From: Medicago truncatula
Lineage: Eukaryota; Streptophyta; Magnoliopsida; Fabales; Fabaceae
Direction of reading: 5' to 3'
Assembly: GCF_003473485.1 (NCBI RefSeq)
Contig: NC_053045.1
Coordinates: forward strand, 54,106,494-54,170,493
Length of the DNA: 64,000 nucleotides
The position numbers and the translations under genes were made by a program. Positions 10,968-61,915 of the stretch are shown in pieces. The notes below the pieces were generated by a model. The model made no database searches, was not told the DNA's origin, and saw only the letters and a list, made by a program, of their open reading frames with translations. The first letter of the stretch is position 1, and every line of letters starts with the position of its first letter.

Positions 10968-10976
10968 TAAATTATT

Positions 10977-11975: not shown

Positions 11976-12046
11976 CTCTCTCTGTCTCTCTGTCTCTCTT
12001 CACTATCTGTTTTTAAAGCTTTGGTTTTTTCTCTTTCTATCTGAAA

Positions 12047-29497: not shown

Positions 29498-29541
<44 letters not shown>

Positions 29542-32498: not shown

Positions 32499-35400
32499 AT
32501 GGCAGACCCTGAAATCAATCTCCAAGCTTCTTCACCAATGAACGAAACCAATAACAATAACAAAAACAAAAACAAGAAGAAGAAGAAGCACGATAAGAAG
32601 CGAACCCGTGATATCGTTGAAGAAGAGGAACACGCCGAAGAGATTGTGAATGATACTCATAGCAACGAAGAGTCCTCAAAAAAGAAGAAGAAGAATAAAG
32701 AGGAAGAAGATGTTGTTGAAGTAGAAGATGAATTGGAAGAGAAAAAAGTGAAGAATAACAAAGGTTCTGGAATTATGAGTTCTGAATCATTTTCTTCTCT
32801 TGAATTATCTGAAAATACTTCTAAAGCTATTGTGGATATGGGATTTCAACACTTAACTCAGGTAAAGTAAATCAACGTTTTTCTCTTAATTTCTTGTAAG
32901 ATAACCCTTTTCTAATGATAATGTATTAAGCAATTTTTTTTACTCTAAATTAATTGTGTTTGAAGAAAAATTAGACCTTGTTTTGATATAGAGCTTAATT
33001 GAAGTCCTTATAGCATAATCACTTGTCATGTAAATTGTAAAAGCTATTTTAGTATTTTTATAATTTTAGATGAAATAAAGTCAAGCCATTTTTATACTTG
33101 CTATAAACTGTTTTCATAAGCTATGATTGAGAGCTTATAGAAATAAGCTGAAAACAACTTATGAGTATATCATAAGTTGTTTTCATAAGTGCCTATGCTA
33201 GTAGATAAACTCAAACTAGTCAATTCAAAGAGTTCTTAAGTAGAGTGGATTATGGCTTATAGGGTGTGGTATGTTAGAGATAGAATTGACCAGTTTGTTC
33301 TTGATGTAGATTCAAGCAAGAGCGATTCCACCACTTTTGAGTGGAAAAGATGTTCTTGGTGCTGCAAGGACTGGTTCTGGAAAAACTCTTGCCTTTTTAA
33401 TTCCTGCTGTGGAGCTTTTGCACAAGCTTAAGTTTAATCAGCGAAGTGGAACCGGTGTTGTTATCATATGCCCTACTAGAGAGCTTGCCATTCAGGTATT
33501 ATATTTCGTGCGCTATACTTATCATAAACTTTGCTGTTGGAATTATGGTGCAATTTGGATCAGTTTCTAGCTTATGATTTCTGAGAGCTTCTCAATTAAA
33601 ATATGTTTTTGGTCTTGACAAGCTTGTGGGTGTGCATGGACAAGTTAAGTTTTAGATATACAATTTGGACCAGTTTATAGGTTGGAAGATTCTCAGTTAA
33701 AATAACTTTACTTTACTGTTCTTTCTCATATGGAAATTCCGTACGGAGAAGTTTACAGTTTGTAAGTATATATGAAGAAGTTTAATAAAGTGCTTTTGAA
33801 AAATAATAGAGATACAGAAGATCATTTTGACTTACATGAGAAACTATTAATTAAAAGCCTCAATAGTTTTTACAAGATTCTTATAATATTTAAATTTTCA
33901 CCAGTCTTGTTGTGAAGTTTAATCAAACTGACTCAGGGTTTCTGAAAATATTGGGATTTGGAAGATAATCTCAACTTATACGGGAAACTGTTTTTTGAAA
34001 AACTCATTATTGCAAGATATTATTTTCTATTTTCAAAATTGCTTGTTTTGCAGTTTATCCAAACTGTTTTTTTTCTTTCTTTCTTTTCTTTGCTTGATGT
34101 TCCTCAGATTTCGTTATTCTTTCTATTCTCTTGGGTGTTTTATCATGTTTGAAGTATACGAATTTTATCATCTAATTCTCCTTATTTGCTGATTGTCTAT
34201 TTCTTTAAGACACACGAGGTTGCTCAGAAGCTTCTAAAGCATCATCGTCATTCACAAACTCTTGGATTGGTTATTGGAGGTTCAGCTAGAAGAACTGAAG
34301 CTGAAAGCCTTGCTAAAGGGATAAATATAGTGGTAGCTACTCCTGGTCGTCTTCTGGATCATCTACAAAATACCAAGAGATTCATATATAATAACCTGAA
34401 GGTAGATTATGAGTTGTTCATTCATATAATTGTTTCTCTATTTTGCTCCACTAAAAAATGAATATATTTCATTGCTGATGCTGGTATTGAGTTTTAGTGT
34501 TTTAGATAAGGAAGGAGAGAAGAGGAAGAATAAAAACTTTGACTTGTAATTGTGGTTTAATAGTTTACAAGACTAAACACTGATCCATATTTATAGTTTC
34601 TAGGCTCCTAATCCTAATTAAATATAAAAACCAATAAAGATAGAATAAACACATAAAAACATTCCTAAGAGATAATCTGAAACACTTTAAGATCAAGATA
34701 CCATACATTATTTTCCTGCAATCTTACATCTTGTACTTATTATTGATGTATTTTTTATCATCAGAATATTTTGTGAGTGTTTGATGCTTATCACTTATCA
34801 GTAATGCCAGCATTGCTCGTAGATTGTCCACACGAGTGTTTAATCAGAAGTTCATTCATCATGTATACTTGCTGATTTTATTTTATGTTCACATGCGTTG
34901 TATTGTAACATTCTTCATTTGTCCTTCACTGGCTCTTGAAAATAGCATGGATGCATATTACTGTAGATTCAGGCTATGCTCTTACTCTTAAATTCCTGAA
35001 TTCTTTGGCAGTGCCTCATTATCGATGAAGCTGACAGGATATTGGAAGCAAACTTTGAGGATGAATTGAAGCAGATTATCAAGCTCCTCCCAAAGGTATC
35101 TATAATGTTGCCCCCCCTTCTCCTTTCCCTTTCTGTCATGCATGAGCCTGTGAAATTATAGTGGCAGTTTCAAGTTGCTTTGTCCAGCCCATTTTCCTTA
35201 CAAGGGTTGGATGACTGAACCAGAAAACCCTAGCAAAGAGGACTTCAATAATTTAAAATTTACAAATATTATCTATTTCTTACCATAGATTAAAAGTACA
35301 GCTATAAATTCTACCCAAAAGTCTGTTGCCTTCGAATGTCAGCAGCTGCTTGCAGTTGGCTTAAAAATACATGGTCTTGGAGATCATATTTTTAAATTAT

Positions 35401-38400
35401 GGCCAACAATTTTAGGCTGAGATGTGCTGCTATATTTCCTGTTTGATTTTGCTTCAATAATTTACACTTATTATAAGTGAATATTTAGTGTGTTTCTAAC
35501 TGATGTCTGTGGGCTTGGCTAATTGATCTACTTCTCATTCAACAGAACAGACAGACAGCTTTATTTTCAGCTACACAAACAAAGAAGGTTTGTTCTTCAT
35601 TTTCCATCTTCTGTCTAGTTCTTTCGCCAAAAGTTTATTTTAATCTAATCTCAATTTATAAGAATTTTAATACAAGTTTTTTTGTTTAATTTGAAATTCT
35701 GATACACACTGTACTTGAAATACATCAGTAATTTTTGGCTCAATCTATTAGAATTCGATACTTGATAGTGAGCGGTATACTTGCAGTTTTGGTTCTGAAT
35801 CATATTATCCCTCAAATTCTAGGTTGAAGATCTTGCTCGCCTGTCATTTCAGACGACTCCTATCTATATTGATGTAGACGATGGGAGAAAGAAGGTGAAG
35901 TGTCCACTTGAATTTATTATAGTCTTTGAACTTTGTTCATCAACATTATTATCTTACCTGAGAGAAACGCATAAATGCAGGTTACAAATGAAGGGTTGCT
36001 TCAGGGTTATGTTGTTGTTCCCTGTGCCAAGCGATTTATGGTTCTTTATTCCTTCTTGAAGAGGCACAAATCGAAAAAAGTGATGGTCTTTTTCTCTTCA
36101 TGCAACAGTGTCAAATTCCATGCAGACATTTTTAATCACATTCATTTGCATTGTTCAAGTATTTACGGAAAACAAAAGCAGCAGACCCGGACAACTACTT
36201 TTGTTGACTTCTGCCAAGCAGAAAAGGGCATCTTGCTCTGTACTGACGTTGCTGCTCGTGGACTGGACATACCTTCTGTGGTATATACATCTTTCATATC
36301 TACCTACATGAAATTTTTTAAATAGTAAAATATGACTGATTTCTACTAGGTTTATTAAGTCTTCTCCCCTAGTATTAAGTATAAAGTTAGATAATCTAAT
36401 CTAAGTACTACCTATAGAAAATAAGTATAAGAGAAAGAGAGTAAATATTAACAAAGGATACAATATTGGGGTAACCTAACCTACGACACCTCCAGAAAAA
36501 GAAACATTGGAGCAAAGAATAGAAAATCTTCCCACATACAACTATATAAAAATTAGAATACACATGAAAGTCACATTAACTCAGTAAAGGTTGCTCTATC
36601 TGCTTATTTAATGACAAAACCTCTAACCACTAACTGCGTGGTTAAGCGAGGCTAAGAAGATAAACTTTTCCTGCAAAAAGATGCAATGTCAAAAGCTATA
36701 CTTGAAAATTCTGTCATTTAGCTTTATTTTTCAATCATAACCAAATTTCACAATACAATGTGCACGCTCTCAATGACATTTAAGAAAGTGTGCACAACTT
36801 TCAAGACATATCCATTACTCACAAAAGCATGAGTCTACACCAGAAATACCTAGCAGCTAGGGGATGGAAGGTAAATGGCTACCAGTCTCTGAATATGGGA
36901 ATACAAACTTGTTCCTGCCTGCAAAGTTTCAGTGAACTACTCCATAAATATATTAAGTAAACAGTACTGTTGTTCAAATGAAAGATTTGATCTAATAAGG
37001 CGACCTGGATTTCCAAAGTTTGGATTCTTGCGTAGATTAGTCCTCCATGTGTGTGTATTTATTTAGATTTGTATACAGTTAACATTAAACAAAATTTAAA
37101 TGAACTATTGTGCTGATGCAGCTATATATTCTGTTGATTGAAAATCATTAAAGGTAAAAGTTTTTATCTTTTTCTCTCTTCTTTATGTTGTAGGACTGGA
37201 TTTTGCAGTACGATCCACCTGATGAACCAAAGGTACTACCTGTTCTTCTACTGATGAGCAGTAATCATTTTTCTTAGCAGTTTCATATATTGACTCACAC
37301 TATAATACATTTTATTATGCTACCAGGAATATATCCACAGGGTCGGTAGAACAGCTCGTGGGGAAGATGGAAAAGGCAATGCTTTACTTTTCCTGATTCC
37401 TGAAGAATTGCAATTTCTTCGCTATCTGAAGGTCAGTTTCTCTCACTTAACAGTAGGGATAGTAAGCTAGCTGACGCTGAACCCAAATTTATTAAGTTGA
37501 TAATGTATACATTTACTTCATCTGAGAAAGTATCCAAGTAAAAAGGGAAACATAGTGCTATGAAGACCTCTCATGGCCGGGTCCAGAAAAGAGTTTAATC
37601 TGTTGTTGGTTTAATGTTAAGACTGGCCAGCCTTACCTTACAGAACATCAACTCTAAGTATTGTGACTTATGAGACATGGACACATAGACACCTGTCACA
37701 CCACTATTGTCTAAAATGTGAAGCATCGACAATGACACACACGAAGTACAAGTGTTGTATGGGTGTTGGTTTCCAATGTGTGTCGGACATGGGGAAGGCA
37801 TAATTTGATGTCACCTAAAACCAGAGGTGTGGGATTATTTGAGGAAACCTTGAGAGTTTCATGCCTAGAGTACATGATAAACGGGAATGGGATGTGCAGT
37901 GATTGCTATTTTCCCTAAGCCCAGGACTCTGTCCCTTTTTTGCAAAAAAATTATTCTTGAATCATCCCAAATCTTAATATTTTATGCTTATTTCAGGAAG
38001 CTAAGGTCCCTGTGAAAGAATACGCTTATGATGAAAAGAAGGTGGCAAACATACAGTCTCACCTGGTATATTCTGTCTTCCTTGTGTTTTAATAGAATTT
38101 TATTTATTATAGTAACCAACTGCAGCTGATGTTACAAAGGAACTTCTGCATTGTGTAGGAGAATTTGGTTGCTGAAAATTATTTTTTGAATAAAATGGCT
38201 AAAGAAGCTTATAAATCATACATATTAGCATACAATTCACATTCTTCAAAGGATATATTCAGTGTTCAACGCCTTGATATGCAGGTACAGCTCTTAGAGT
38301 ATTTTATATTGGCTAAAATATGGTTTTGGTCCCTGCAAATATGCCTCGTTTTGGTTTTAGTCCCTGTAAAAAAAATTTGTTGTTTTTGGTCCTTGCAAAA

Positions 38401-39824
38401 TATTTTGTTTTTGAAAATAGTCCTTGCAGGGACTATTTCCAAAAACAAAATATTTTGCAGGGACCTTTTTCAAAATCAAAAGATTTTGCAGGGACTATTT
38501 CTCTAATAAATGGGTTTAGTCATCATGTGCCACGTGTGCAAATCATCACAAAAGTGGAGCCAGGGACCAAAACCAAAATAAGGCATATTTGCAGGGACCA
38601 AAAACAACAAATTTTTTTTGCAGGGACTAAAACCAAAACGAGACGTATTTGCAGGGACTAAAACCATATTTTAGCCTTTTATATTTTACAATTTTCATGA
38701 ATATGCATGTTAATGAAATATATAGTCTAAATAGATCTTCTGCAGTTAAGCACTTATTCCTCTGCTTGATAATTTAAATCACCTGTTACTGGGAACTTCT
38801 ATATGTTCTTTTCATTTTGATTAAAAGCTTCAAGGATAGGGGCAAAATGAATGGTTGATTGGTAAGAATAAATTACTGAACACAATCAATCAGAGTGGCA
38901 ACATATAGATTAAAGGAAGCTTTTTATGTTTGAATTCCTAGTTAAAAGATAACATCATTTACGAAACCATTTTTTAAGATAAGTTCATCAATCGTAGATC
39001 TAGATAGAGACTGGAAAGGGCTCTGATTGAGTTAGATCTGAAAAAATTGGGGAAAGGATTCTCTACCTTTACTATTTGGTGACTTTAGTGTATTTTGTAG
39101 ATAGATTGATGGTTAAAATAAATTATTTAGACGAGTGAGAAAGTTAAGTTAAGAGAGAGGGAGAGACAAAGTCACCAAAGGTAGACAATCCCATCCCAAA
39201 AAATTGGTATCACCATTCGTAGTTTTTTTTTTTCCTTTGTTTTATTTTAATAGTTGAAGAAACACGGAAAAGAATGAATTATTGTCTTAATTTAATAGGA
39301 GCGATCAGAAGATTCATTTAATTCAGGATTTTTATATTAGTTGAAGAAACACGAAAAATAATGAATTATTGTCTTAATTTAATGAGAAAGATGTCATAGA
39401 CGCCCCTGTGTATTGAGGGGTAGGCTGGAGAAATAATCATTTCATTTTCTAAAATTTCTCAGGGAAAGCTGTATAGTTTTTTTTTGCTTTCAAATAAGCT
39501 ATAATCCAAAATGCATCAAGTACTATGGTATAGTCATGATCATGATAGCTTGGCCAGAGAAAAGTATCATATTTGTTGAGCTTAAATTATTTTGATTCTA
39601 AAACATGTATACAATGTCATGATACCAGTTCGTTTTTATACCTTGAGCAGGCTGTTGCTGCTTCATTCTGTTTTTCGAACCCTCCAAATGTGAGTCTAAA
39701 CATAAACATGAGCAAGCAAAGGAAGAAAACTCGCAGAGTTGATGGAAGTAGACATGGGTTCAATCCTAACAATCCTTATGGAAAGCGAAATGCTGATGAT
39801 AAGCGGCAGTTTGTGAGGCATTAA
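32499..39824 (+). CDS. RH51: DEAD-box ATP-dependent RNA helicase, Has1/DDX18 type (RH51-like)
   Basis: Twelve exons: 32499-32861, 33310-33495, 34210-34401, 35012-35095, 35546-35587, 35823-35894, 35981-36280, 37194-37232, 37327-37431, 37997-38065, 38159-38284, 39651-39824; GT-AG introns, 583 codons plus stop, every exon a whole number of codons. Yeast Has1 and human DDX18 act in the nucleolus in ribosomal subunit assembly; plant RH51/RH27 are the closest relatives. A Lys/Glu-rich N-terminus (about residues 20-90) is followed by the Q motif, ARTGSGKT (140-147), PTRELA (176-181), DEAD (252-255), SAT (283-285), TDVAARG (401-407) and HRVGRTARG (430-438). The tail has [19 protein letters not shown] and a basic end. 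All motifs are intact. Intron 9 and intron 11 carry small transposons. Exons 3-12 are repeated downstream. RH51 versus RH27 is not resolved. Confidence 0.95.
37655..37805. mobile_element. Possible GTGTC-rich element in helicase intron 9
   Basis: GACATGGACACATAGACACC at the left and GTGTGTCGGACATG at the right resemble the ends and interior of the 6828-6987 element. Ends and target duplication not defined. Repeated at about 50786-50936 in unit B. Confidence 0.4.
38311..38676. mobile_element. MULE-type MITE in helicase intron 11, 366 bp, 9-bp TSD
   Basis: Ends GGCTAAAATATGGTTTTGGT and ACTAAAACCATATTTTAGCC with repeated 'GGTCCCTGCAAA' blocks in both orientations. The 9-bp duplication TTTTATATT is perfect (38302-38310, 38677-38685). 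Present identically in unit B. Confidence 0.88.
39050..39197. mobile_element. Short TIR element in helicase intron 11
   Basis: GGATTCTCTACCTTTACT... GGTGACTTT at the left mirrors AAAGTCACCAAAGGTAGACA at the right; interior shared with 2205-2383 (TTAAAATAAATTATTTAGA). Ends approximate. Copy in unit B at about 52181-52328. Confidence 0.5.
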
Positions 39825-41209
39825 AAGCAAGCATGTCATGGCCATTATAACCAAAAAGTTTTGGTAGAATTTTATACAACCAGGTTTTGTAACTTAGTCA
39901 AATTAGTCAACATATGATTATTCAAGAGATCAAAATTTTGTACAATTGGACATATGTTTCCACATTCTCTTGCCTTGTACCTGAATAATAGCCCTCCATT
40001 CTTATGATTTAGTTTGTAATTATTTTTTTATTGTAAGTTCTATCATTAACTTTTATTCAATCAGGTTTAAATGCAGTTTGATTTTGAATTTCTGAATAGT
40101 TTTTTCTTAATTTGATCTCAATTTTACTTCATCTAATTTCATCTTCATCTACTTCATCGATTTCACATTATTTTCAGTTGTTGTTGTTGTTATTTCAATT
40201 TGGTTAAGATGCAGTTGTCATCCTCCTCTTGAGGAACAATATGAGCTGTTGCTCAACGCCCACACTCTAGTCTGGAAGGATCAGTGGTTCAGTGGTTATG
40301 TAGTTTCGTTACACAATTTGCTCGTTTGGTGGGAGAAATTAATTAAAGTTAAAAACTCAAGCTGAGAAGAAGTGGTTAATGACTGATAGGAAAGAAACAA
40401 CTTGTTTTTTATGCTGTAAAAGTTTCAATTTAAGAGGATTTGAGGTTGTTCAGATTCATGAGTGAAACAAGGATACTGTGTTGTAGTGTGTGTATTTGTG
40501 AGATGTTCAATTCTCTAAAGAGTTTAAATTGTTGAAAGATTTCTATTTTCTATCTTAGGTTCTTATCCCTCCTTACATTACATCTATGTTTAGAGTCATA
40601 TCTTTTGGTTGCATATGTTTACACACTTTTCAAATTTATAGTTAATATAATTTAAACACTATTGCAAATTTGGTTCTCTAATAAAAACTTCTGAATTATT
40701 TGGACAAAAATGTGTTCAATTGCAAATTACTATTTGGACCTTTGTCCATCTAACTAACTCCCACAGTTTGATTAGAACAATCACCATTCGATATTATCTC
40801 TAGTCTTGGTTTATGAAACGTAAACATATGTTTTATGAAAGTATGTATCTTATACAATTGAGCTTATAGAGAAAACACGACTAATTTCAAGACTGAGAAG
40901 ATGTCTAGCAATAGAGAAGATTCCAAAACATGAGATTTTATAATTATGATTCACTGCATTTAATTTTTTCACACAGTCACTCATTTATTACATTAATAAC
41001 CGTTTGATCTTGATCAAACAGTTCAGGAAAAAAGTATTTAATTTTTATTTATAATTCTGTTCTCAAATTAGGACCATCCGGTCATGATTGGACGGCCGAG
41101 AATGCATGACTGTGTGAATGCGGTAAATTGCTGACTGCAGTCAATCACAATCCGAGATTCTGTGGCACATTTTTTTTAAAACCAAAATGAATTTCATTAA
41201 TAAAACAAT
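39825..41209. other. 3'UTR of the helicase and intergenic sequence
   Basis: No further gene recognised up to the truncated element at 41210. The same sequence recurs at 52956-54340. Confidence 0.4.
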
Positions 41210-41546
41210 GGGTTAATAGTGTTTTTTTTCTCTGTAATATAGTGCACTTTTGGTTTTAGCCCCCGTATTTTTTTTTTAGATTCCACCCTTGAAAAATAAA
41301 AATTCTTCAGGATTGACCCCTCACCCCAATGTGGCAGCAGAATCTCCTACGTGGCAGTAACGTGTCAACTTTTTTTCATGCCACGCGTGTAAATGAACGC
41401 CATGTGGCATTTGTGATTTTTTTTAAATAAAAAAAAAAAAAACGAAAAAAAATTAATAAAATACTAAAAAAAATTTAAAAAAAGGAAAAATTAATAATGA
41501 TTAAAAAATCTGGTAAAATAAAAAATAAATGAAAAAAATCTGGAAA
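41210..41546. mobile_element. Truncated MULE-type element ('GGGTTAATA' family)
   Basis: Starts GGGTTAATAGTGTTTTTT and follows the left part of the 2049-3505 element (TTTTAGATTCCACCCTTGAA, CACGCGTGTAAATGAACGCC, CATGTGGCATTTGTGATTTT), then stops without the matching right end. Just beyond, AAATGCTCACAAGTCTCCAATTCTA is directly repeated (about 41547 and 41612), a possible repair scar. Copy in unit B from 54341. Confidence 0.65.
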
Positions 41547-42450
41547 ATGCTCACAAGTCTCCAATTCTAAGTTACTAAGTTGTCCTCATACTCTTGTATC
41601 TAATTACCAACAAATGCTCACAAGTCTCCAATTCTAATTAATTCTATATACAACCTGTCTTTTTTGTTTTAATACACTTTGGAATTGGATCACTTATAAT
41701 TGGATACTAATTGGGATTCTAAGTTTTTGGGATGTTACATTCTACCCCTTTAAAAGATTCTATCTTCAAAATTCAAAGCAACAACAACCGAAAAATAATA
41801 ACATACAAGCAATATCACATTAATTAATAGAAACATAATTTAAGATACGCATTTAACATGTTTAACATGCTTAAAAAAACGTGTTTAACGAGCTACAAAA
41901 TGATTGCGTCAGATTCAACGTTATAGTGTCCTCTTATTTGATAGATTGTGTAATACTTTTCGCTTTTGAACGCACTGTGTAGCGCTTTAGACGGGTGAGA
42001 ATAAATTAACTCTCCTTTTCTTCATCGACACTGAAGTTTCTTTAACTATTGTTGGTTTCCCTTTGTCTCATTTCTTTCTTTTCTTTATTCATTTTTCTCC
42101 TCCTTTCTCTCATTTCTTCTCTTTCACCTCCTTTCATCTCTTTGAATGTGTTTACAATATGTTACAAAAAGAGTGTATAAATAAGAGTCTTGTTAACATT
42201 TTGTGTATACACTTGTCTAAGTTTTTTAAATGCTCTTGTTAAACTTTTATGTAGTTGCATGTCAAGTAAACTCAAGTGATTTGTTGAAAAGTGATTGATT
42301 AGACTGGTTAATTGAAAATAACTTTAAAACGAAATAATATAGTTTAGATCAATGAAATAATTTGTTGAAATGTTTATTAAATATATTTTTGCTAATATGA
42401 ATATTAAATGTGACCAAATAATCATTGTCATCTCATAAGTAGATTTTTTA

Positions 42451-42625
42451 CCCCTATAATATAGGTCATTTTCGATTGTCCCTCCTGTAATTTTAATTTA
42501 CCCCCTGTAAAAAAAAAATTATTTTGATTTACCCCTAATAGGTCAAACAAAAATCAATTTTATTTTATTTTTTTTCAAGAAATTTTCATTTTTGTTTGGC
42601 CTATTAGGGGTAAATCAAAACAATT
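42451..42625. mobile_element. Degenerate MULE-type MITE
   Basis: Contains GATTTACCCCTAATAGG and CCTATTAGGGGTAAATC as a central palindrome around TTTGTTTGG, as in the element at 16955-17204, but the outer ends are worn. Copy in unit B at about 55585-55759. Confidence 0.5.
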
Positions 42626-42906
42626 TTTTTGAAGAGATTAGCAAAAAAAAATTGGAGGGAAAACAAGAAGAAAGATGAATTTCCAACTTGAAGATCAAAT
42701 TGGATGCACACAAGTTATTTAGTCAAGAGAAGTGTTGAAAATAATATGCCTAAATATATTTTTGAAGATTTTACATTTAGATATATTTTAGATTATATTT
42801 AAAATAAGATATCATTAGGATTTATAATTTATATATCTATTTAAAATACTCTTAGGTTTTGTTCCTTATTTAAATATATAATTTAGAAATATTTTTTGTA
42901 TGACAA

Positions 42907-42966
42907 TTTTTTTTTGTGGTGGCCGGGGTTCGAACCCCAGCCTTGCATATTTTATGCATTATATAA
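42907..42966 (-). mobile_element. SINE 3' fragment
   Basis: On the minus strand it reads ATGCAAGGCTGGGGTTCGAA then CCCCGGCCACCAC and poly-A: the B-box half of a tRNA-derived SINE. The A-box half is missing. Copy in unit B at about 56041-56100. Confidence 0.6.
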
Positions 42967-43497
42967 AAATATGTTTCATATGATTTAATACACTCAAAAA
43001 AACCATCACTTGCATATTGGTTTCTTTCATTCCCTAAAAAAATATTGGTTTCTTTAATTAAAATCAGAATCAATATTTCATAATATCATCTTTTAGTGTC
43101 GAATTTTGAACGAGTTTTTCAACGCAAGAGATACTCTCGACCAAGTGACCTCTAGGGAGAGAGGAATTTCATTATATCATCCATTCATTATGAAAAAATT
43201 TCATACTGTATAAAAAATTCACATAAAGGAAGATATATTTTTTTTTTGACAAAACATAAAGGAAGAATGTAAATCACGTTAATTAAACATAGGAAAAGTT
43301 AATACAAACTTCTTTTTTTGGGGGAAATAAAAAAGTCAATATAAACTAACTAAAAAGAAAACAATACCATCGTGATGACAATAATGACCAAAGCAACAAA
43401 ATAAACTAAACAACTAAAAACACAAGAAAATAAAAAGCTCTAGAATTAGACCACACTCTTGAATTAAACCTAAATTAAAAGATCACGAATTAGTGCT

Positions 43498-44345
43498 TCA
43501 AGCATAAATCATGCCAAGGAATGACAAAGCAAAGAGTGTGAACGCTGTGATAGTAATAGGAGTTATTTGAGCAGCTTTAGAATGTGCTATTGGTGCATTC
43601 TCATTTGCAGATTGTGGTGAGGATGCTGTTGGTTCAGGTTCAACATCCAAAACCTTGATGATCATTTTCTGTCCTCTTGTACAATGACCACTAACACCAC
43701 TAATGAAGTAGAACAATCCTGGTCGTTCAAATTTGAAAACTGTGTTGCCATTGTTTCCGAAGAAGAGTGGACGAGTCGATTTGCAATTCTCATATTCTTC
43801 TTCACTAACCACCATCACTGAATCTTTCTCGTACTTGAAATCTAACCAAAAATTCAAAATAAAGGTTATATATTACATTTACAAAAAGGTCCACGACAAA
43901 GATTAAAAACATAAGTTTTGCAATCTATACACATAAAGAAGTCTTGATAGTATGAAAAATCGTCGAGAATTGCTATCACAATTTTTTAGAAAATGGATCG
44001 AAAAATAAAATGGTGACATATATATCATGCATTTCCCTTCAAAAATAAAATATATCATGCATTTAGAAATGAAGATGATCTCAACTCAAACATAACATAC
44101 ATACATGTATCTTAAAATTAAATTGGTAAGAAGTGGTACTTACGAATAGTGTCATCAATTTTGAATCTGTTTTGAGAAGCCCATTTGTTGTACATTTCAT
44201 CACCGTCCTTTGAGTTAGGGACGACCCAACCAGTTTTGCCACCGACTTCAAATTCAGTACAATTGATGAGCAAAAATTGGGAAGCAGAAAAAAGAATCAA
44301 GCAAAGGAAAAATGTGTGTGAGGAAGCTTTGAAGATGGCAGTCAT
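43498..44345 (-). CDS. Early nodulin-like protein (phytocyanin domain, GPI-anchor signal), unit A copy
   Basis: Two exons, 44144-44345 and 43498-43841, joined through ATTC|AT (I-H), 181 codons plus stop. Signal peptide about residues 1-29 (FFLCLILFSASQFLLINC), phytocyanin domain about 30-130 (EVGGKTGWVVP, FKYEKDSVMVV at 69-79, YFISGVSGHCTRGQK at 112-126), a short Ser/Pro/Glu linker and a hydrophobic C-terminus typical of a GPI-anchor signal. Disulfide cysteines C87 and C121 are present. Copper ligands of true plastocyanin-like phytocyanins are partly absent (Ser near 75 instead of His, S115 instead of Cys; H120 remains), as is usual for early nodulin-like proteins, so it probably does not bind copper. 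Expected at the plasma membrane outer face. The gene is intact and repeated exactly in unit B. Confidence 0.92.
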
Positions 44346-46260: not shown

Positions 46261-46410
46261 TCGCAGAACCGTTGAGCACCGAGAAGAAGGTGATGTCAGT
46301 TGTCTTCTTCTTTATCTTTTGTTCTTGTTTGTGGGTTTTTTCGGTTGAGGCCCAACTTGAATCCGGTAGTGAGATCGGGATATTGTTTTACACATTTTTT
46401 TAGTTATTTT

Positions 46411-47151: not shown

Positions 47152-47298
47152 TGTGTTTGTAGGATTTTACTTTATTAAGGTTCTGAAGTTTAAATTCTGT
47201 TATAAAAAGTCCGATTACTTGGGATTCGCGGTTATTATTGTAAAAAATCAATGGTACAAATCGAAGTGTGTTAGTTAACAATGAATAACGTAGTTGCT

Positions 47299-47310
47299 AT
47301 GTGCTGATAA
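47299..47310. other. 12-bp filler at the duplication junction
   Basis: ATGTGCTGATAA lies between the end of unit A (TAGTTGCT) and the start of unit B (TTATTTGCTGATTG) and is absent from the other ends (34181 and 60434 continue differently). GCTGAT in the filler also occurs 6 bases into unit B, as expected for templated end joining. Confidence 0.85.
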
Positions 47311-47338
47311 TTATTTGCTGATTGTCTATTTCTTTAAG

Positions 47339-50300
47339 ACACACGAGGTTGCTCAGAAGCTTCTAAAGCATCATCGTCATTCACAAACTCTTGGATTGGT
47401 TATTGGAGGTTCAGCTAGAAGAACTGAAGCTGAAAGCCTTGCTAAAGGGATAAATATAGTGGTAGCTACTCCTGGTCGTCTTCTGGATCATCTACAAAAT
47501 ACCAAGAGATTCATATATAATAACCTGAAGGTAGATTATGAGTTGTTCATTCATATAATTGTTTCTCTATTTTGCTCCACTAAAAAATGAATATATTTCA
47601 TTGCTGATGCTGGTATTGAGTTTTAGTGTTTTAGATAAGGAAGGAGAGAAGAGGAAGAATAAAAACTTTGACTTGTAATTGTGGTTTAATAGTTTACAAG
47701 ACTAAACACTGATCCATATTTATAGTTTCTAGGCTCCTAATCCTAATTAAATATAAAAACCAATAAAGATAGAATAAACACATAAAAACATTCCTAAGAG
47801 ATAATCTGAAACACTTTAAGATCAAGATACCATACATTATTTTCCTGCAATCTTACATCTTGTACTTATTATTGATGTATTTTTTATCATCAGAATATTT
47901 TGTGAGTGTTTGATGCTTATCACTTATCAGTAATGCCAGCATTGCTCGTAGATTGTCCACACGAGTGTTTAATCAGAAGTTCATTCATCATGTATACTTG
48001 CTGATTTTATTTTATGTTCACATGCGTTGTATTGTAACATTCTTCATTTGTCCTTCACTGGCTCTTGAAAATAGCATGGATGCATATTACTGTAGATTCA
48101 GGCTATGCTCTTACTCTTAAATTCCTGAATTCTTTGGCAGTGCCTCATTATCGATGAAGCTGACAGGATATTGGAAGCAAACTTTGAGGATGAATTGAAG
48201 CAGATTATCAAGCTCCTCCCAAAGGTATCTATAATGTTGCCCCCCCTTCTCCTTTCCCTTTCTGTCATGCATGAGCCTGTGAAATTATAGTGGCAGTTTC
48301 AAGTTGCTTTGTCCAGCCCATTTTCCTTACAAGGGTTGGATGACTGAACCAGAAAACCCCTAGCAAAGAGGACTTCAATAATTTAAAATTTACAAATATT
48401 ATCTATTTCTTACCATAGATTAAAAGTACAGCTATAAATTCTACCCAAAAGTCTGTTGCCTTCGAATGTCAGCAGCTGCTTGCAGTTGGCTTAAAAATAC
48501 ATGGTCTTGGAGATCATATTTTTAAATTATGGCCAACAATTTTAGGCTGAGATGTGCTGCTATATTTCCTGTTTGATTTTGCTTCAATAATTTACACTTA
48601 TTATAAGTGAATATTTAGTGTGTTTCTAACTGATGTCTGTGGGCTTGGCTAATTGATCTACTTCTCATTCAACAGAACAGACAGACAGCTTTATTTTCAG
48701 CTACACAAACAAAGAAGGTTTGTTCTTCATTTTCCATCTTCTGTCTAGTTCTTTCGCCAAAAGTTTATTTTAATCTAATCTCAATTTATAAGAATTTTAA
48801 TACAAGTTTTTTTGTTTAATTTGAAATTCTGATACACACTGTACTTGAAATACATCAGTAATTTTTGGCTCAATCTATTAGAATTCGATACTTGATAGTG
48901 AGCGGTATACTTGCAGTTTTGGTTCTGAATCATATTATCCCTCAAATTCTAGGTTGAAGATCTTGCTCGCCTGTCATTTCAGACGACTCCTATCTATATT
49001 GATGTAGACGATGGGAGAAAGAAGGTGAAGTGTCCACTTGAATTTATTATAGTCTTTGAACTTTGTTCATCAACATTATTATCTTACCTGAGAGAAACGC
49101 ATAAATGCAGGTTACAAATGAAGGGTTGCTTCAGGGTTATGTTGTTGTTCCCTGTGCCAAGCGATTTATGGTTCTTTATTCCTTCTTGAAGAGGCACAAA
49201 TCGAAAAAAGTGATGGTCTTTTTCTCTTCATGCAACAGTGTCAAATTCCATGCAGACATTTTTAATCACATTCATTTGCATTGTTCAAGTATTTACGGAA
49301 AACAAAAGCAGCAGACCCGGACAACTACTTTTGTTGACTTCTGCCAAGCAGAAAAGGGCATCTTGCTCTGTACTGACGTTGCTGCTCGTGGACTGGACAT
49401 ACCTTCTGTGGTATATACATCTTTCATATCTACCTACATGAAATTTTTTAAATAGTAAAATATGACTGATTTCTACTAGGTTTATTAAGTCTTCTCCCCT
49501 AGTATTAAGTATAAAGTTAGATAATCTAATCTAAGTACTACCTATAGAAAATAAGTATAAGAGAAAGAGAGTAAATATTAACAAAGGATACAATATTGGG
49601 GTAACCTAACCTACGACACCTCCAGAAAAAGAAACATTGGAGCAAAGAATAGAAAATCTTCCCACATACAACTATATAAAAATTAGAATACACATGAAAG
49701 TCACATTAACTCAGTAAAGGTTGCTCTATCTGCTTATTTAATGACAAAACCTCTAACCACTAACTGCGTGGTTAAGCGAGGCTAAGAAGATAAACTTTTC
49801 CTGCAAAAAAGATGCAATGTCAAAAGCTATACTTGAAAATTCTGTCATTTAGCTTTATTTTTCAATCATAACCAAATTTCACAATACAATGTGCACGCTC
49901 TCAATGACATTTAAGAAAGTGTGCACAACTTTCAAGACATATCCATTACTCACAAAAGCATGAGTCTACACCAGAAATACCTAGCAGCTAGGGGATGGAA
50001 GGTAAATGGCTACCAGTCTCTGAATATGGGAATACAAACTTGTTCCTGCCTGCAAAGTTTCAGTGAACTACTCCATAAATATATTAAGTAAACAGTACTG
50101 TTGTTCAAATGAAAGATTTGATCTAATAAGGCGACCTGGATTTCCAAAGTTTGGATTCTTGCGTAGATTAGTCCTCCATGTGTGTGTATTTATTTAGATT
50201 TGTATACAGTTAACATTAAACAAAATTTAAATGAACTATTGTGCTGATGCAGCTATATATTCTGTTGATTGAAAATCATTAAAGGTAAAAGTTTTTATCT

Positions 50301-52955
50301 TTTTCTCTCTTCTTTATGTTGTAGGACTGGATTTTGCAGTACGATCCACCTGATGAACCAAAGGTACTACCTGTTCTTCTACTGATGAGCAGTAATCATT
50401 TTTCTTAGCAGTTTCATATATTGACTCACACTATAATACATTTTATTATGCTACCAGGAATATATCCACAGGGTCGGTAGAACAGCTCGTGGGGAAGATG
50501 GAAAAGGCAATGCTTTACTTTTCCTGATTCCTGAAGAATTGCAATTTCTTCGCTATCTGAAGGTCAGTTTCTCTCACTTAACAGTAGGGATAGTAAGCTA
50601 GCTGACGCTGAACCCAAATTTATTAAGTTGATAATGTATACATTTACTTCATCTGAGAAAGTATCCAAGTAAAAAGGGAAACATAGTGCTATGAAGACCT
50701 CTCATGGCCGGGTCCAGAAAAGAGTTTAATCTGTTGTTGGTTTAATGTTAAGACTGGCCAGCCTTACCTTACAGAACATCAACTCTAAGTATTGTGACTT
50801 ATGAGACATGGACACATAGACACCTGTCACACCACTATTGTCTAAAATGTGAAGCATCGACAATGACACACACGAAGTACAAGTGTTGTATGGGTGTTGG
50901 TTTCCAATGTGTGTCGGACATGGGGAAGGCATAATTTGATGTCACCTAAAACCAGAGGTGTGGGATTATTTGAGGAAACCTTGAGAGTTTCATGCCTAGA
51001 GTACATGATAAACGGGAATGGGATGTGCAGTGATTGCTATTTTCCCTAAGCCCAGGACTCTGTCCCTTTTTTGCAAAAAAATTATTCTTGAATCATCCCA
51101 AATCTTAATATTTTATGCTTATTTCAGGAAGCTAAGGTCCCTGTGAAAGAATACGCTTATGATGAAAAGAAGGTGGCAAACATACAGTCTCACCTGGTAT
51201 ATTCTGTCTTCCTTGTGTTTTAATAGAATTTTATTTATTATAGTAACCAACTGCAGCTGATGTTACAAAGGAACTTCTGCATTGTGTAGGAGAATTTGGT
51301 TGCTGAAAATTATTTTTTGAATAAAATGGCTAAAGAAGCTTATAAATCATACATATTAGCATACAATTCACATTCTTCAAAGGATATATTCAGTGTTCAA
51401 CGCCTTGATATGCAGGTACAGCTCTTAGAGTATTTTATATTGGCTAAAATATGGTTTTGGTCCCTGCAAATATGCCTCGTTTTGGTTTTAGTCCCTGTAA
51501 AAAAAATTTGTTGTTTTTGGTCCTTGCAAAATATTTTGTTTTTGAAAATAGTCCTTGCAGGGACTATTTCCAAAAACAAAATATTTTGCAGGGACCTTTT
51601 TCAAAATCAAAAGATTTTGCAGGGACTATTTCTCTAATAAATGGGTTTAGTCATCATGTGCCACGTGTGCAAATCATCACAAAAGTGGAGCCAGGGACCA
51701 AAACCAAAATAAGGCATATTTGCAGGGACCAAAAACAACAAATTTTTTTTGCAGGGACTAAAACCAAAACGAGACGTATTTGCAGGGACTAAAACCATAT
51801 TTTAGCCTTTTATATTTTACAATTTTCATGAATATGCATGTTAATGAAATATATAGTCTAAATAGATCTTCTGCAGTTAAGCACTTATTCCTCTGCTTGA
51901 TAATTTAAATCACCTGTTACTGGGAACTTCTATATGTTCTTTTCATTTTGATTAAAAGCTTCAAGGATAGGGGCAAAATGAATGGTTGATTGGTAAGAAT
52001 AAATTACTGAACACAATCAATCAGAGTGGCAACATATAGATTAAAGGAAGCTTTTTATGTTTGAATTCCTAGTTAAAAGATAACATCATTTACGAAACCA
52101 TTTTTTAAGATAAGTTCATCAATCGTAGATCTAGATAGAGACTGGAAAGGGCTCTGATTGAGTTAGATCTGAAAAAATTGGGGAAAGGATTCTCTACCTT
52201 TACTATTTGGTGACTTTAGTGTATTTTGTAGATAGATTGATGGTTAAAATAAATTATTTAGACGAGTGAGAAAGTTAAGTTAAGAGAGAGGGAGAGACAA
52301 AGTCACCAAAGGTAGACAATCCCATCCCAAAAAATTGGTATCACCATTCGTAGTTTTTTTTTTTCCTTTGTTTTATTTTAATAGTTGAAGAAACACGGAA
52401 AAGAATGAATTATTGTCTTAATTTAATAGGAGCGATCAGAAGATTCATTTAATTCAGGATTTTTATATTAGTTGAAGAAACACGAAAAATAATGAATTAT
52501 TGTCTTAATTTAATGAGAAAGATGTCATAGACGCCCCTGTGTATTGAGGGGTAGGCTGGAGAAATAATCATTTCATTTTCTAAAATTTCTCAGGGAAAGC
52601 TGTATAGTTTTTTTTTGCTTTCAAATAAGCTATAATCCAAAATGCATCAAGTACTATGGTATAGTCATGATCATGATAGCTTGGCCAGAGAAAAGTATCA
52701 TATTTGTTGAGCTTAAATTATTTTGATTCTAAAACATGTATACAATGTCATGATACCAGTTCGTTTTTATACCTTGAGCAGGCTGTTGCTGCTTCATTCT
52801 GTTTTTCGAACCCTCCAAATGTGAGTCTAAACATAAACATGAGCAAGCAAAGGAAGAAAACTCGCAGAGTTGATGGAAGTAGACATGGGTTCAATCCTAA
52901 CAATCCTTATGGAAAGCGAAATGCTGATGATAAGCGGCAGTTTGTGAGGCATTAA
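47339..52955 (+). pseudogene. 5'-truncated copy of the DEAD-box helicase (exons 3-12)
   Basis: Exons 47339-47530, 48141-48224, 48676-48717, 48953-49024, 49111-49410, 50325-50363, 50458-50562, 51128-51196, 51290-51415 and 52782-52955 equal exons 3-12 of the gene at 32499. Exons 1-2 are missing, so the Q motif, the ARTGSGKT P-loop and PTRELA are absent and no ATP-driven helicase can result. The promoter with telo-box is also missing. The acceptor of exon 3 with 28 bases of intron remains, so a spliced read-through or chimeric transcript is possible. No stop or frameshift has accumulated. Confidence 0.92.
51442..51807. mobile_element. MULE-type MITE, unit B copy
   Basis: Copy of 38311-38676, with the same flanking TTTTATATT. 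Arrived by segmental duplication and not by a separate insertion. Confidence 0.88.
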
Positions 52956-55900
52956 AAGCAAGCATGTCATGGCCATTATAACCAAAAAGTTTTGGTAGAA
53001 TTTTATACAACCAGGTTTTGTAACTTAGTCAAATTAGTCAACATATGATTATTCAAGAGATCAAAATTTTGTACAATTGGACATATGTTTCCACATTCTC
53101 TTGCCTTGTACCTGAATAATAGCCCTCCATTCTTATGATTTAGTTTGTAATTATTTTTTTATTGTAAGTTCTATCATTAACTTTTATTCAATCAGGTTTA
53201 AATGCAGTTTGATTTTGAATTTCTGAATAGTTTTTTCTTAATTTGATCTCAATTTTACTTCATCTAATTTCATCTTCATCTACTTCATCGATTTCACATT
53301 ATTTTCAGTTGTTGTTGTTGTTATTTCAATTTGGTTAAGATGCAGTTGTCATCCTCCTCTTGAGGAACAATATGAGCTGTTGCTCAACGCCCACACTCTA
53401 GTCTGGAAGGATCAGTGGTTCAGTGGTTATGTAGTTTCGTTACACAATTTGCTCGTTTGGTGGGAGAAATTAATTAAAGTTAAAAACTCAAGCTGAGAAG
53501 AAGTGGTTAATGACTGATAGGAAAGAAACAACTTGTTTTTTATGCTGTAAAAGTTTCAATTTAAGAGGATTTGAGGTTGTTCAGATTCATGAGTGAAACA
53601 AGGATACTGTGTTGTAGTGTGTGTATTTGTGAGATGTTCAATTCTCTAAAGAGTTTAAATTGTTGAAAGATTTCTATTTTCTATCTTAGGTTCTTATCCC
53701 TCCTTACATTACATCTATGTTTAGAGTCATATCTTTTGGTTGCATATGTTTACACACTTTTCAAATTTATAGTTAATATAATTTAAACACTATTGCAAAT
53801 TTGGTTCTCTAATAAAAACTTCTGAATTATTTGGACAAAAATGTGTTCAATTGCAAATTACTATTTGGACCTTTGTCCATCTAACTAACTCCCACAGTTT
53901 GATTAGAACAATCACCATTCGATATTATCTCTAGTCTTGGTTTATGAAACGTAAACATATGTTTTATGAAAGTATGTATCTTATACAATTGAGCTTATAG
54001 AGAAAACACGACTAATTTCAAGACTGAGAAGATGTCTAGCAATAGAGAAGATTCCAAAACATGAGATTTTATAATTATGATTCACTGCATTTAATTTTTT
54101 CACACAGTCACTCATTTATTACATTAATAACCGTTTGATCTTGATCAAACAGTTCAGGAAAAAAGTATTTAATTTTTATTTATAATTCTGTTCTCAAATT
54201 AGGACCATCCGGTCATGATTGGACGGCCGAGAATGCATGACTGTGTGAATGCGGTAAATTGCTGACTGCAGTCAATCACAATCCGAGATTCTGTGGCACA
54301 TTTTTTTTAAAACCAAAATGAATTTCATTAATAAAACAATGGGTTAATAGTGTTTTTTTTCTCTGTAATATAGTGCACTTTTGGTTTTAGCCCCCGTATT
54401 TTTTTTTTAGATTCCACCCTTGAAAAATAAAAATTCTTCAGGATTGACCCCTCACCCCAATGTGGCAGCAGAATCTCCTACGTGGCAGTAACGTGTCAAC
54501 TTTTTTTCATGCCACGCGTGTAAATGAACGCCATGTGGCATTTGTGATTTTTTTTAAATAAAAAAAAAAAAAAACGAAAAAAAATTAATAAAAATACTAA
54601 AAAAAATTTAAAAAAAAGGAAAAATTAATAATGATTAAAAAATCTGGTAAAATAAAAAATAAATGAAAAAAATCTGGAAAATGCTCACAAGTCTCCAATT
54701 CTAAGTTACTAAGTTGTCCTCATACTCTTGTATCTAATTACCAACAAATGCTCACAAGTCTCCAATTCTAATTAATTCTATATACAACCTGTCTTTTTTG
54801 TTTTAATACACTTTGGAATTGGATCACTTATAATTGGATACTAATTGGGATTCTAAGTTTTTGGGATGTTACATTCTACCCCTTTAAAAGATTCTATCTT
54901 CAAAATTCAAAGCAACAACAACCGAAAAATAATAACATACAAGCAATATCACATTAATTAATAGAAACATAATTTAAGATACGCATTTAACATGTTTAAC
55001 ATGCTTAAAAAAACGTGTTTAACGAGCTACAAAATGATTGCGTCAGATTCAACGTTATAGTGTCCTCTTATTTGATAGATTGTGTAATACTTTTCGCTTT
55101 TGAACGCACTGTGTAGCGCTTTAGACGGGTGAGAATAAATTAACTCTCCTTTTCTTCATCGACACTGAAGTTTCTTTAACTATTGTTGGTTTCCCTTTGT
55201 CTCATTTCTTTCTTTTCTTTATTCATTTTTCTCCTCCTTTCTCTCATTTCTTCTCTTTCACCTCCTTTCATCTCTTTGAATGTGTTTACAATATGTTACA
55301 AAAAGAGTGTATAAATAAGAGTCTTGTTAACATTTTGTGTATACACTTGTCTAAGTTTTTTAAATGCTCTTGTTAAACTTTTATGTAGTTGCATGTCAAG
55401 TAAACTCAAGTGATTTGTTGAAAAGTGATTGATTAGACTGGTTAATTGAAAATAACTTTAAAACGAAATAATATAGTTTAGATCAATGAAATAATTTGTT
55501 GAAATGTTTATTAAATATATTTTTGCTAATATGAATATTAAATGTGACCAAATAATCATTGTCATCTCATAAGTAGATTTTTTACCCCTATAATATAGGT
55601 CATTTTCGATTGTCCCTCCTGTAATTTTAATTTACCCCCTGTAAAAAAAAAATTATTTTGATTTACCCCTAATAGGTCAAACAAAAATCAATTTTATTTT
55701 ATTTTTTTTCAAGAAATTTTCATTTTTGTTTGGCCTATTAGGGGTAAATCAAAACAATTTTTTTGAAGAGATTAGCAAAAAAAAATTGGAGGGAAAACAA
55801 GAAGAAAGATGAATTTCCAACTTGAAGATCAAATTGGATGCACACAAGTTATTTAGTCAAGAGAAGTGTTGAAAATAATATGCCTAAATATATTTTTGAA

Positions 55901-56631
55901 GATTTTACATTTAGATATATTTTAGATTATATTTAAAATAAGATATCATTAGGATTTATAATTTATATATCTATTTAAAATACTCTTAGGTTTTGTTCCT
56001 TATTTAAATATATAATTTAGAAATATTTTTTGTATGACAATTTTTTTTTGTGGTGGCCGGGGTTCGAACCCCAGCCTTGCATATTTTATGCATTATATAA
56101 AAATATGTTTCATATGATTTAATACACTCAAAAAAACCATCACTTGCATATTGGTTTCTTTCATTCCCTAAAAAAATATTGGTTTCTTTAATTAAAATCA
56201 GAATCAATATTTCATAATATCATCTTTTAGTGTCGAATTTTGAACGAGTTTTTCAACGCAAGAGATACTCTCGACCAAGTGACCTCTAGGGAGAGAGGAA
56301 TTTCATTATATCATCCATTCATTATGAAAAAATTTCATACTGTATAAAAAATTCACATAAAGGAAGATATATTTTTTTTTTGACAAAACATAAAGGAAGA
56401 ATGTAAATCACGTTAATTAAACATAGGAAAAGTTAATACAAACTTCTTTTTTTGGGGGAAATAAAAAAGTCAATATAAACTAACTAAAAAGAAAACAATA
56501 CCATCGTGATGACAATAATGACCAAAGCAACAAAATAAACTAAACAACTAAAAACACAAGAAAATAAAAAGCTCTAGAATTAGACCACACTCTTGAATTA
56601 AACCTAAATTAAAAGATCACGAATTAGTGCT
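52956..56631. other. Intergenic part of unit B
   Basis: Copy of 39825-43497: truncated MULE-type element from 54341, degenerate MITE at about 55585-55759 and SINE fragment at about 56041-56100. No gene. Confidence 0.6.
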
Positions 56632-57479
56632 TCAAGCATAAATCATGCCAAGGAATGACAAAGCAAAGAGTGTGAACGCTGTGATAGTAATAGGAGTTAT
56701 TTGAGCAGCTTTAGAATGTGCTATTGGTGCATTCTCATTTGCAGATTGTGGTGAGGATGCTGTTGGTTCAGGTTCAACATCCAAAACCTTGATGATCATT
56801 TTCTGTCCTCTTGTACAATGACCACTAACACCACTAATGAAGTAGAACAATCCTGGTCGTTCAAATTTGAAAACTGTGTTGCCATTGTTTCCGAAGAAGA
56901 GTGGACGAGTCGATTTGCAATTCTCATATTCTTCTTCACTAACCACCATCACTGAATCTTTCTCGTACTTGAAATCTAACCAAAAATTCAAAATAAAGGT
57001 TATATATTACATTTACAAAAAGGTCCACGACAAAGATTAAAAACATAAGTTTTGCAATCTATACACATAAAGAAGTCTTGATAGTATGAAAAATCGTCGA
57101 GAATTGCTATCACAATTTTTTAGAAAATGGATCGAAAAATAAAATGGTGACATATATATCATGCATTTCCCTTCAAAAATAAAATATATCATGCATTTAG
57201 AAATGAAGATGATCTCAACTCAAACATAACATACATACATGTATCTTAAAATTAAATTGGTAAGAAGTGGTACTTACGAATAGTGTCATCAATTTTGAAT
57301 CTGTTTTGAGAAGCCCATTTGTTGTACATTTCATCACCGTCCTTTGAGTTAGGGACGACCCAACCAGTTTTGCCACCGACTTCAAATTCAGTACAATTGA
57401 TGAGCAAAAATTGGGAAGCAGAAAAAAGAATCAAGCAAAGGAAAAATGTGTGTGAGGAAGCTTTGAAGATGGCAGTCAT
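56632..57479 (-). CDS. Early nodulin-like protein (phytocyanin domain), unit B copy
   Basis: Exons 57278-57479 and 56632-56975, 181 codons, protein identical to the unit A copy. About 0.9 kb upstream of the start codon is the Helitron 3' end, and both lie within the duplicated unit, so the promoter is copied too and both genes should be expressed alike if the duplication is real. Confidence 0.9.
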
Positions 57480-58876
57480 ATTTGGATTTTCTATAGGGAG
57501 GTCTAGTGAGTGTACTTTTGATACAAGTGAAAAATGTGTTATGAGAAATGGTAACTTTGGACTTAAAAAAGAGAAGTGAAGTTGAAAAAGAGAGTTTGTT
57601 AACGAAAAAGAGGGAGCACATTGAGGTACACGTTTTAGAGGAAGTGGGTTTTGTTGTGAGTGATGGCTTCACAAAGTGGCCTCTGACTTTGTCCAATTAG
57701 TTGATATGTGGAATTTGGAATTTTTCTAATTTTCTCTCCAATTAATTCCATTATTATCCATGTGCTCTTGGCTCATTTGATTTGACTTTGTACCCGTAAT
57801 TATATCCACTTTGAATGAAACGTTTTTATTTTTACAAAAATTAAGGTCCCGCAAAAAAATAAGACACCTGCTAAAATAAAATGTTTTAGCTTATCAAATA
57901 TTTAAATTCTCACAGGTTGTTAATTAAATACTCTTTCTATGAATATATCTAAAATTATGGTGCTTTGGGCTGCCGCCCCCTTGGCCCGTGTTCAGGGCCA
58001 CCCCTTTATACAACGTTCCAATCAGTTGAGTTAATCTCATGTGATCATCTATATCTATATTTCTATATCTAAAATAATAAATAATAATATAAACATTTGA
58101 GAGTTTTCAAACAAACAAAATGATTTTCATACAAACTTTTTTTTTTTTTTTTAAGGAAATTGTTGTTCGTCATGCTCTTACTTGTTTGTTGTGTCATCCA
58201 TTTCACATTTAACCTTTAAATTAAAACTAACTAGGGATACAACCCGTGCGTTGCACGGGTTTGATTAAATTGTTTTAGTTGATGCATCAGATCATTATTT
58301 AGTTATATAAAAAAAATGTTGGACATTTTATATTTTTAAAATAACATTATTTTAGCAAATATTTAAAGTAAATGATACAATGATATCAAGTATATTAAAA
58401 ATTGAGTTCTTTAATAAAAAAATTGATTCCATCATTAAAGATTATATTTGACCGCAATTAAAGTTCTTCAGTTCCAAAAAATCAGATGTTTACTGATCAA
58501 AAAAATAAAATTAATGGTTTGTAGGTCCATATTTTTAAGGTAAAAACTTGGACTATCACAAAAAAAAAAGGGTAAAAACTTGGATGCATTTTTGTTAGTC
58601 GAAAATATGAAAAGGGTTTTTTTTTTTTTTTTTTTGTTTTTATCAAAAAGTGTTATAATTTCATACTGAAGTAGTAGTTGATTGAATAAAAAATAAAAAG
58701 TTATTAATGACATATCTAATCAAAATTAAAGAGTAAGATTTTTAATTTTTTTGTTTAAAAAAAAGAAGGAAAAGTTACGAACAATATAAAATAAAAAGGA
58801 ATTTTTTTATATTTAAACATAAAAGTGATTTTGAAAGAAAAGAGAACACAACTGAATCCCTAAAAACGTGAATTTT

Positions 58877-59395
58877 TTAAACTCCTTTCAACCAAGATGA
58901 ACACGGCAATCCTCGATAATTTGGAAAGGCAAAGCAATTCTTCGAAAGCCTATATGTTTCAAAAAAAGCAATTCTTCTTAAGCCTATATTCTTGATAATC
59001 GTTACAGAAATTCTTGAGTTGAAAGTTACATCCTCCCCATCAAATTGAGATTTCGAAAGCCTATATGTTTCAAACAATCCATCTCCTCCATGGACAACAA
59101 TTCGCAACCTATTATTCGTTTTCTGTTGATGCAGCAAATTTTCCTTTGACAGGTTATGGTTCTTATCTCTACGTATTATTTTGACCACTTTCAAGACATC
59201 GTTGGATCGTTCCTTTTTATCACTACTCGTTCCAAAAGAATGATGTTGATGAGACGAACGCTTCTTTCTGACACCAATAGAAGCAACTTTCTGCAGATAA
59301 TCCTCAGATAACACTTTGTGCCTATTTCTGATGCCAGCAGTGTTATTATCCGAGATGGTTCTTCGTTGATGTCGAGTGAACGAACGACGGTTCAA
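58877..59395 (-). CDS. Uncharacterised basic protein ORF inside the Helitron, unit B copy
   Basis: Identical to 45742-46260. Here it stands in the undivided Helitron, about 1.1 kb downstream of the Rep/helicase stop codon. Confidence 0.4.
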   Translation of the reverse strand: MNRRSFTRHQRRTISDNNTAGIRNRHKVLSEDYLQKVASIGVRKKRSSHQHHSFGTSSDKKERSNDVLKVVKIIRRDKNHNLSKENLLHQQKTNNRLRIVVHGGDGLFETYRLSKSQFDGEDVTFNSRISVTIIKNIGLRRIAFFETYRLSKNCFAFPNYRGLPCSSWLKGV

Positions 59396-60473
59396 TCGCA
59401 GAACCGTTGAGCACCGAGAAGAAGGTGATGTCAGTTGTCTTCTTCTTTATCTTTTGTTCTTGTTTGTGGGTTTTTTCGGTTGAGGCCCAACTTGAATCCG
59501 GTAGTGAGATCGGGATATTGTTTTACACATTTTTTTAGTTATTTTCAATTTTGTTCTCGATGTATTCTTAATTTGTTGAACTCTGTTCATTTTTGTCAGT
59601 GTTGATGAATTGTGTTATTTGTTTTAGGTATGTGAGTTCAACTATGGAAGTTGTTTGGCAATTAGCAGTGGAACACATCATAGACGGTACATTGATAAAT
59701 TGATATGATAATTTTAGTCATTGATTCAACACTGGTTGTTCATTTGGAACCATTTATGCGTAAATTTGATATTTTTTTTTTTTTTTTTGTGGTTTTGACC
59801 ATTAATAAGTTTTTCCACCAATGAAACTATTAAAATGGTTATATTAAAATGTAGAAACTATTAAAATGTAAACATTTGAATATTTTGTTCTTCATCTCTG
59901 GGTTAGTTTCCGTTGAGCTGTCTGTTGAATTCGTTACCGAGTTCGGCGACAATCATCCTCCTACTATTGTTGTACACATGTTACTTATATTAAATTTTGT
60001 TTTGGATTTAGTTTCAATTTGTTGAACTCAGTTCAGTTTTGTAATTGTTGATAAAATGTTTTTTTTTTAGGTATGTGAGTTAAAGGATCGATAGTGTTTG
60101 CCAATTAGTAGTGGGCTGCTTCGTATAAGGTACATTGATCAATTGATATGATAATTTTAGTTATTGGTTTAACATTGGCTGCTCATTTGGAACCATTTAT
60201 GCTATTAGTTGATGTGTAGATAGAAACTTACGGTTGTAACCATTAATAAGTTTTTTCACCATTGAAACGATTCAAATGGTTATTGTTGTGTTTGTAGGAT
60301 TTTACTTTATTAAGGTTCTGAAGTTTAAATTCTGTTATAAAAAGTCCGATTACTTGGGATTCGCGGTTATTATTGTAAAAAATCAATGGTACAAATCGAA
60401 GTGTGTTAGTTAACAATGAATAACGTAGTTGCTAAAGTTATTGTGAATGATAGATAGATTTGAAAACAGTGCA

Positions 60474-61854: not shown

Positions 61855-61915
<61 letters not shown>

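Follow-up and report, generated by a model that had tools for sequence, protein, structure and literature searches.

In the 64,000-bp window analysed here (32% GC, 0 Ns) there is a single long direct repeat, its two copies almost side by side. This raises the question of whether a plant chromosome was caught shortly after a 13.1-kb tandem duplication or whether one region was written twice during assembly. The initial annotation had posed this dilemma as an extremely recent duplication or an assembly/haplotype artefact, and we find the framing to be right, with both readings keeping weight.

Architecture and gene content of the repeat

Self-BLAST aligned 34182-47299 with 47311-60434 at 99.954% identity, with 0 mismatches and 6 gaps, a 13-kb match that is impossible by chance. 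Together with a base-by-base walk along the two copies in full, this confirmed the 13.1-kb tandem duplication without substitutions that had been reported, with its end moved from 60433 to 60434. The copies are direct and head-to-tail, and the outer flanks are intact, the helicase gene running unbroken across the left edge and a Helitron-like element across the right one. Each unit contains exons 3-12 of the helicase gene, a whole early-nodulin-like gene and approximately 2.2 kb of the Helitron-like element. The features are as follows.

34182-47299: duplicated unit, copy A, 13,118 bp (self-BLAST and base-by-base walk)
47311-60434: duplicated unit, copy B, 13,124 bp (self-BLAST and base-by-base walk)
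34181/34182: left breakpoint, 28 bp ahead of helicase exon 3, in intron 2
60434/60435: right breakpoint, within the Helitron-like element and ~40 bp away from where a PIF1 ORF stops
47300-47310, plus strand: junction filler TGTGCTGATAA, 11 bp, no microhomology with the flanks
32499-39824, plus strand: complete Has1/DDX18-type DEAD-box RNA helicase gene, 12 exons, 583 aa; exons 1-2 left of the unit, exons 3-12 in copy A
47339-52955, plus strand: 5'-truncated helicase copy, exons 3-12 only, without the start-codon exon and the GSGKT exon
43498-44345, minus strand: early-nodulin-like (phytocyanin) gene, copy A, two exons, 181 aa; PF02298, E 3.1e-19
56632-57479, minus strand: early-nodulin-like gene in copy B, no different from its counterpart in copy A (same ORFs, none of the six differences between copies)
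58231-63214, minus strand: Helitron-like element, running right from copy B; extent from candidate 3' terminus to ORF end
45097-47299, minus strand: Helitron-like element truncated by the junction in copy A, 3' part; placed from copy B and the copy offset
60474-61907 and 62108-63214, minus strand: PIF1 helicase ORFs; PF05970, E 1.4e-62 and 2.3e-20; PF21530

The helicase model was assembled manually by joining open frames at GT-AG borders, giving 583 codons with all introns in phase 0, and its 12 exons bear out the earlier assignment of exons 3-12 to the unit. The predicted protein contains PF00270 and PF00271 and matched six distinct PDB sequences at E values up to 1e-60 (best, 1.7e-199), five of which bear the name Has1 or DDX18, the sixth being entered as 'RNA helicase'. 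The GSGKT motif is encoded in exons 1-2, outside the duplicated unit. Because these two exons fall outside, the helicase sequence in copy B is a fragment; peptides of exons 3-12 were all found in 47311-54300 (18 of 18), and those of exons 1-2 were absent from it (0 of 4).

The second gene assigned to the unit was likewise found there, complete at 181 aa. Its profile match, PF02298, is to the plastocyanin-like domain; the label early-nodulin-like comes from the initial annotation. The part of a Helitron that had also been placed in the unit was recovered as well, the unit ending inside a Helitron-like element with PIF1 ORFs. Helitrons terminate at their 3' end with a hairpin and CTRR, before a T. 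The sole candidate for such a terminus in 57000-60480 lies at 58231, where a hairpin with a 9-bp stem (AACCCGTGC AAC GCACGGGTT) is followed by 6 nt, CTAG and then T. The 3' part of the element sits upstream of the early-nodulin-like gene.

Other features were observed in the window. A 57-bp sequence is common to 10912-10968, outside the unit, and to 38621-38677 and 51752-51808, in the two unit copies (98%). Further repeats include an exact 84-bp direct repeat (14963-15046 and 20612-20695), two arrays of a ~110-bp tandem unit at 27790-29171 (2.4 and 3.4 copies, 88-94% alike) and an imperfect inverted repeat at 29499-29869 (376 bp aligned, 79%) with AT dinucleotide runs at its borders, possibly a MITE-like or foldback element. 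Plus-strand ORFs at 12017-12829 and 601-1017 encode, respectively, a DUF617 domain (E 3.1e-69) and a reverse-transcriptase zinc-binding domain (PF13966, E 1.1e-13), the latter probably a retroelement remnant. The only Rfam hit reaching its gathering score in the window, at 4350-4586 on the minus strand, was to the MIR2630 precursor family (148.6 bits against a gathering score of 144), which we take to be of Medicago type and which points to a legume.

Differences between the two copies

The walk through both copies revealed 0 substitutions and exactly six differences, all 1-bp homopolymer indels, in line with the approximately six 1-base differences noted previously. The run lengths in copies A and B were C3/4, A5/6, A14/15, A4/5, A7/8 and A9/10, such that copy B was longer by one base in every case. 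Three of the six lie within 41443-41484. Relative to the hand-made gene models, two fall in helicase introns and four outside both modelled genes; thus, the exons are identical in both copies. Each of the five A/T differences affects an A run, although A runs (184) and T runs (180) of at least 4 are equally common in copy A. In the homopolymer census, the T runs of 16, 17 and 19 showed no length difference between the copies.

The likeliest source of these six differences is sequencing error left in copy A, not mutation. Six indels without a substitution misfit normal mutation, whereas consensus error fits. Assuming indel-to-substitution ratios from 0.1 to 1, the probability that all six would be indels is 5.6e-7 to 0.016, and the concentration of three of them at 41443-41484 likewise led us to reject ordinary mutation. 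Relating the hits to run length gave results that hinge on the assumed slope: for exponents of 1 to 6, the probability of no hit in runs of at least 16 fell from 0.92 to <0.001, and that of at least three hits in runs of 5 or fewer fell from 0.99 to 0.0002.

The shorter state of all six runs in copy A suggests that it is the less polished copy. The two-sided sign test for this one-way direction gave p = 0.031, or 0.125 if the cluster of three is taken as one event. A shortfall in one copy is expected of an unpolished redundant contig end, and it counts in that respect against a real duplication. One-sided polishing is also possible in a real identical repeat, however, and the direction of the differences therefore separates neither reading.

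The junction and the origin of the second copy

The filler TGTGCTGATAA between the copies is 11 bp long rather than the 12 bp initially given; this length is unambiguous because on either side the bases disagree with the true flanks. It matches neither true continuation, which would be AAGTTATT... after the right breakpoint and ...TAATTCTCC before the left breakpoint; the right-flank sequence beyond the unit is AAGTTATTGTG. Microhomology at the junction is 0 bp; TTGCT, a 5-bp match shared by the unit's two ends, is at chance level (3109 of 20,000 random pairs). Allowing at most one substitution, the filler had no match in the whole window besides itself. Shorter pieces do recur nearby: the 7-mer TGCTGAT is present at 34187-34193, 5 bp inside the unit, and 6 bp of the reverse complement of the filler (TTATCA) occur at 34140 and 34165.

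The 7-mer is a hint of templated synthesis, not proof. When 20,000 breakpoint pairs were drawn at random, matches of at least 7 bp arose in 1.8%, 3.9%, 6.6% and 13.2% with flanks of 15, 30, 50 and 100 bp, and among 20,000 random 11-mers of the window compared with the real flanks, in 4.5%, 11.6%, 17.7% and 33.0%. The initial view that a filler with local similarity favours a real event is thus upheld weakly, by one 7-mer and by the mismatch to both true continuations, and is tempered by a chance expectation of 1.8-12% at 15-30 bp flanks and 13-33% at 100 bp. Its premise, that an artefact cannot create new bases, does not survive: Ko et al. describe false duplications as mostly gap-separated and sometimes joined by incorrect gap filling (PMC9516828).

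From the sequence, we propose, with a modest lean in its favour, that this is a real head-to-tail duplication in a legume-like plant genome, 13.1 kb long and of very recent origin, in which end joining closed the junction with the addition of 11 bp. This grading and those that follow, including the slight weight left to explanations other than a real or a false duplication, are judgements and were not computed. With no microhomology and no repeat linking the breakpoints, end joining with insertion would be the simplest real route. A comparison of the 2-kb stretches centred on the two breakpoints yielded nothing convincing, the best of 38 rows being 42 bp at 79% (E 0.012) and lying hundreds of bp away from the breakpoints. 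Unequal crossing-over between repeats was therefore rejected: no convincing homologous repeat is present at both breakpoints in these stretches, microhomology is 0 bp, and such crossing-over is not needed when no credible repeat joins them. Duplication or gene capture mediated by a Helitron end was also discarded, as the lone candidate 3' end (58231) lies 2.2 kb inside the unit and the breakpoints are elsewhere.

The simplest course of events would begin with a broken or stalled fork and proceed by polymerase-theta-type joining, with 11 bp added at the junction. Across one outer edge each, the helicase gene in its original copy and the Helitron-like element would remain uninterrupted; the event would have newly created a single junction, another complete early-nodulin-like gene and a helicase fragment truncated at its 5' end. 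With a plant mutation rate of 7e-9 per site and generation, the 0 substitutions in 2 x 13,118 bp would place an upper bound of approximately 16,000 generations (95%) on the age of the event.

Over 450 generations, BRCA1-deficient C. elegans acquired 15 tandem duplications, the majority of ~10-20 kb, with microhomology and occasional insertions, and their formation was suppressed by loss of polq-1; wild-type animals yielded none in 240 generations (PMC7368036). We count the mutant duplications in favour of the proposed event, and the wild-type result, like the lack of microhomology at the junction, against it. In mouse cells, according to PMC5730883, small tandem duplications at protruding ends are made mainly by classical end joining, so that polymerase theta may have acted here but is not compelled. 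The fuller proposal, that a spontaneous BRCA1/polymerase-theta-type 13-kb duplication, young enough to be perhaps line-private or still segregating, doubled an intact early-nodulin-like gene and its upstream region in the plant, is tentative, and taken as a whole we think it unlikely.

The strongest alternative, which we hold to be a serious possibility if a less than even one, is a false (homotype) duplication: two contigs sharing 13.1 kb of sequence at their ends would have been placed in series rather than merged, and the gap closed later by 11 unsupported bases. Copy A would then be an unpolished end, which would explain its six missing homopolymer bases, and differences confined to homopolymer indels, with 0 substitutions and all six runs shorter in A, are what this reading anticipates if they are, as is probable, errors; one-sided polishing would, however, also occur in a real identical repeat. 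A length of 13 kb would also be plausible for a read or for an overlap between contigs. In Bionano scaffolding, contigs that overlap are written out as C1, 13 Ns and C2, such that the shared region is duplicated (PMC7649008; PMC8389630), and the BiSCoT authors state that short reads tend to align to one redundant copy while the other stays unpolished (PMC7649008). One Medicago assembly, not necessarily the source of this window, was optical-mapped and gap-filled, with 415 of 522 gaps closed (PMC5545040).

Against this reading, the assembly gap that usually, though not invariably, marks a false duplication is absent (0 N in 64,000 bp), although a filled gap would still be compatible. Correct reads used in gap filling would have supplied the true continuation, so that a filler foreign to both sides, and sharing 7 bp with a breakpoint, counts against an artefact. 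Moreover, duplications of the Bionano type 'usually correspond to allelic duplications' (PMC7649008), which would carry substitutions unless the plant were inbred.

Far less probable is a tandem duplication of greater age that gene conversion recently made uniform, or an extrachromosomal circle that re-integrated. Each would yield near-identical adjacent copies, but conversion would need to span all 13.1 kb to both edges, and re-integration by homology at the same site, which would give the same structure with the filler as the circle closure, calls for an extra step. Least credible is that two haplotypes of one heterozygous locus were assembled in series: such heterotype duplication was the main source of false duplication in the assemblies studied in PMC9516828, but a heterozygosity of 0.1% would leave 13,118 bp free of substitutions with a probability of 2e-6, and one of 0.05% with a probability of 0.0014, which nearly excludes two divergent haplotypes unless the plant is near-homozygous or the haplotypes are identical by descent here.

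Consequences and comparison with known systems

The kind of event is already known, whether the duplication is real or false, and the interest of the locus lies in its copy-number consequence if real. A genuine event would be a plant gene duplication caught before any substitution, in which one complete gene was gained, one truncated copy was born and the host gene was spared. It would also provide a natural marker for copy-number change, identical 13-kb repeats presumably being prone to further gain or loss. If the duplication is false, the second early-nodulin-like gene and the truncated helicase models in that assembly do not exist.

Plant tandem duplications are said to arise from adjacent nicks (Schiml 2016) or patch-mediated breaks (Vaughn and Bennetzen 2014). 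The duplication that we favour would share with them an attribution to break repair but differ in length, theirs reportedly being much shorter than 13 kb. In comparison with unmerged contig ends, as represented by the Bionano 13-N cases (PMC7649008) and the homotype class (PMC9516828), the locus is alike in having adjacent direct copies of several kb that differ by probable consensus errors only, with one copy less polished, and differs in having no N gap and 11 letters foreign to both flanks. The polymerase-theta duplications of BRCA1-deficient C. elegans (PMC7368036) occurred in another organism; here there is a single event with no mutant background known, no microhomology and a pathway that we infer. 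The two are nevertheless alike in being head-to-tail, in a size that in C. elegans is mostly ~10-20 kb, and in the insertions occasionally found at junctions.
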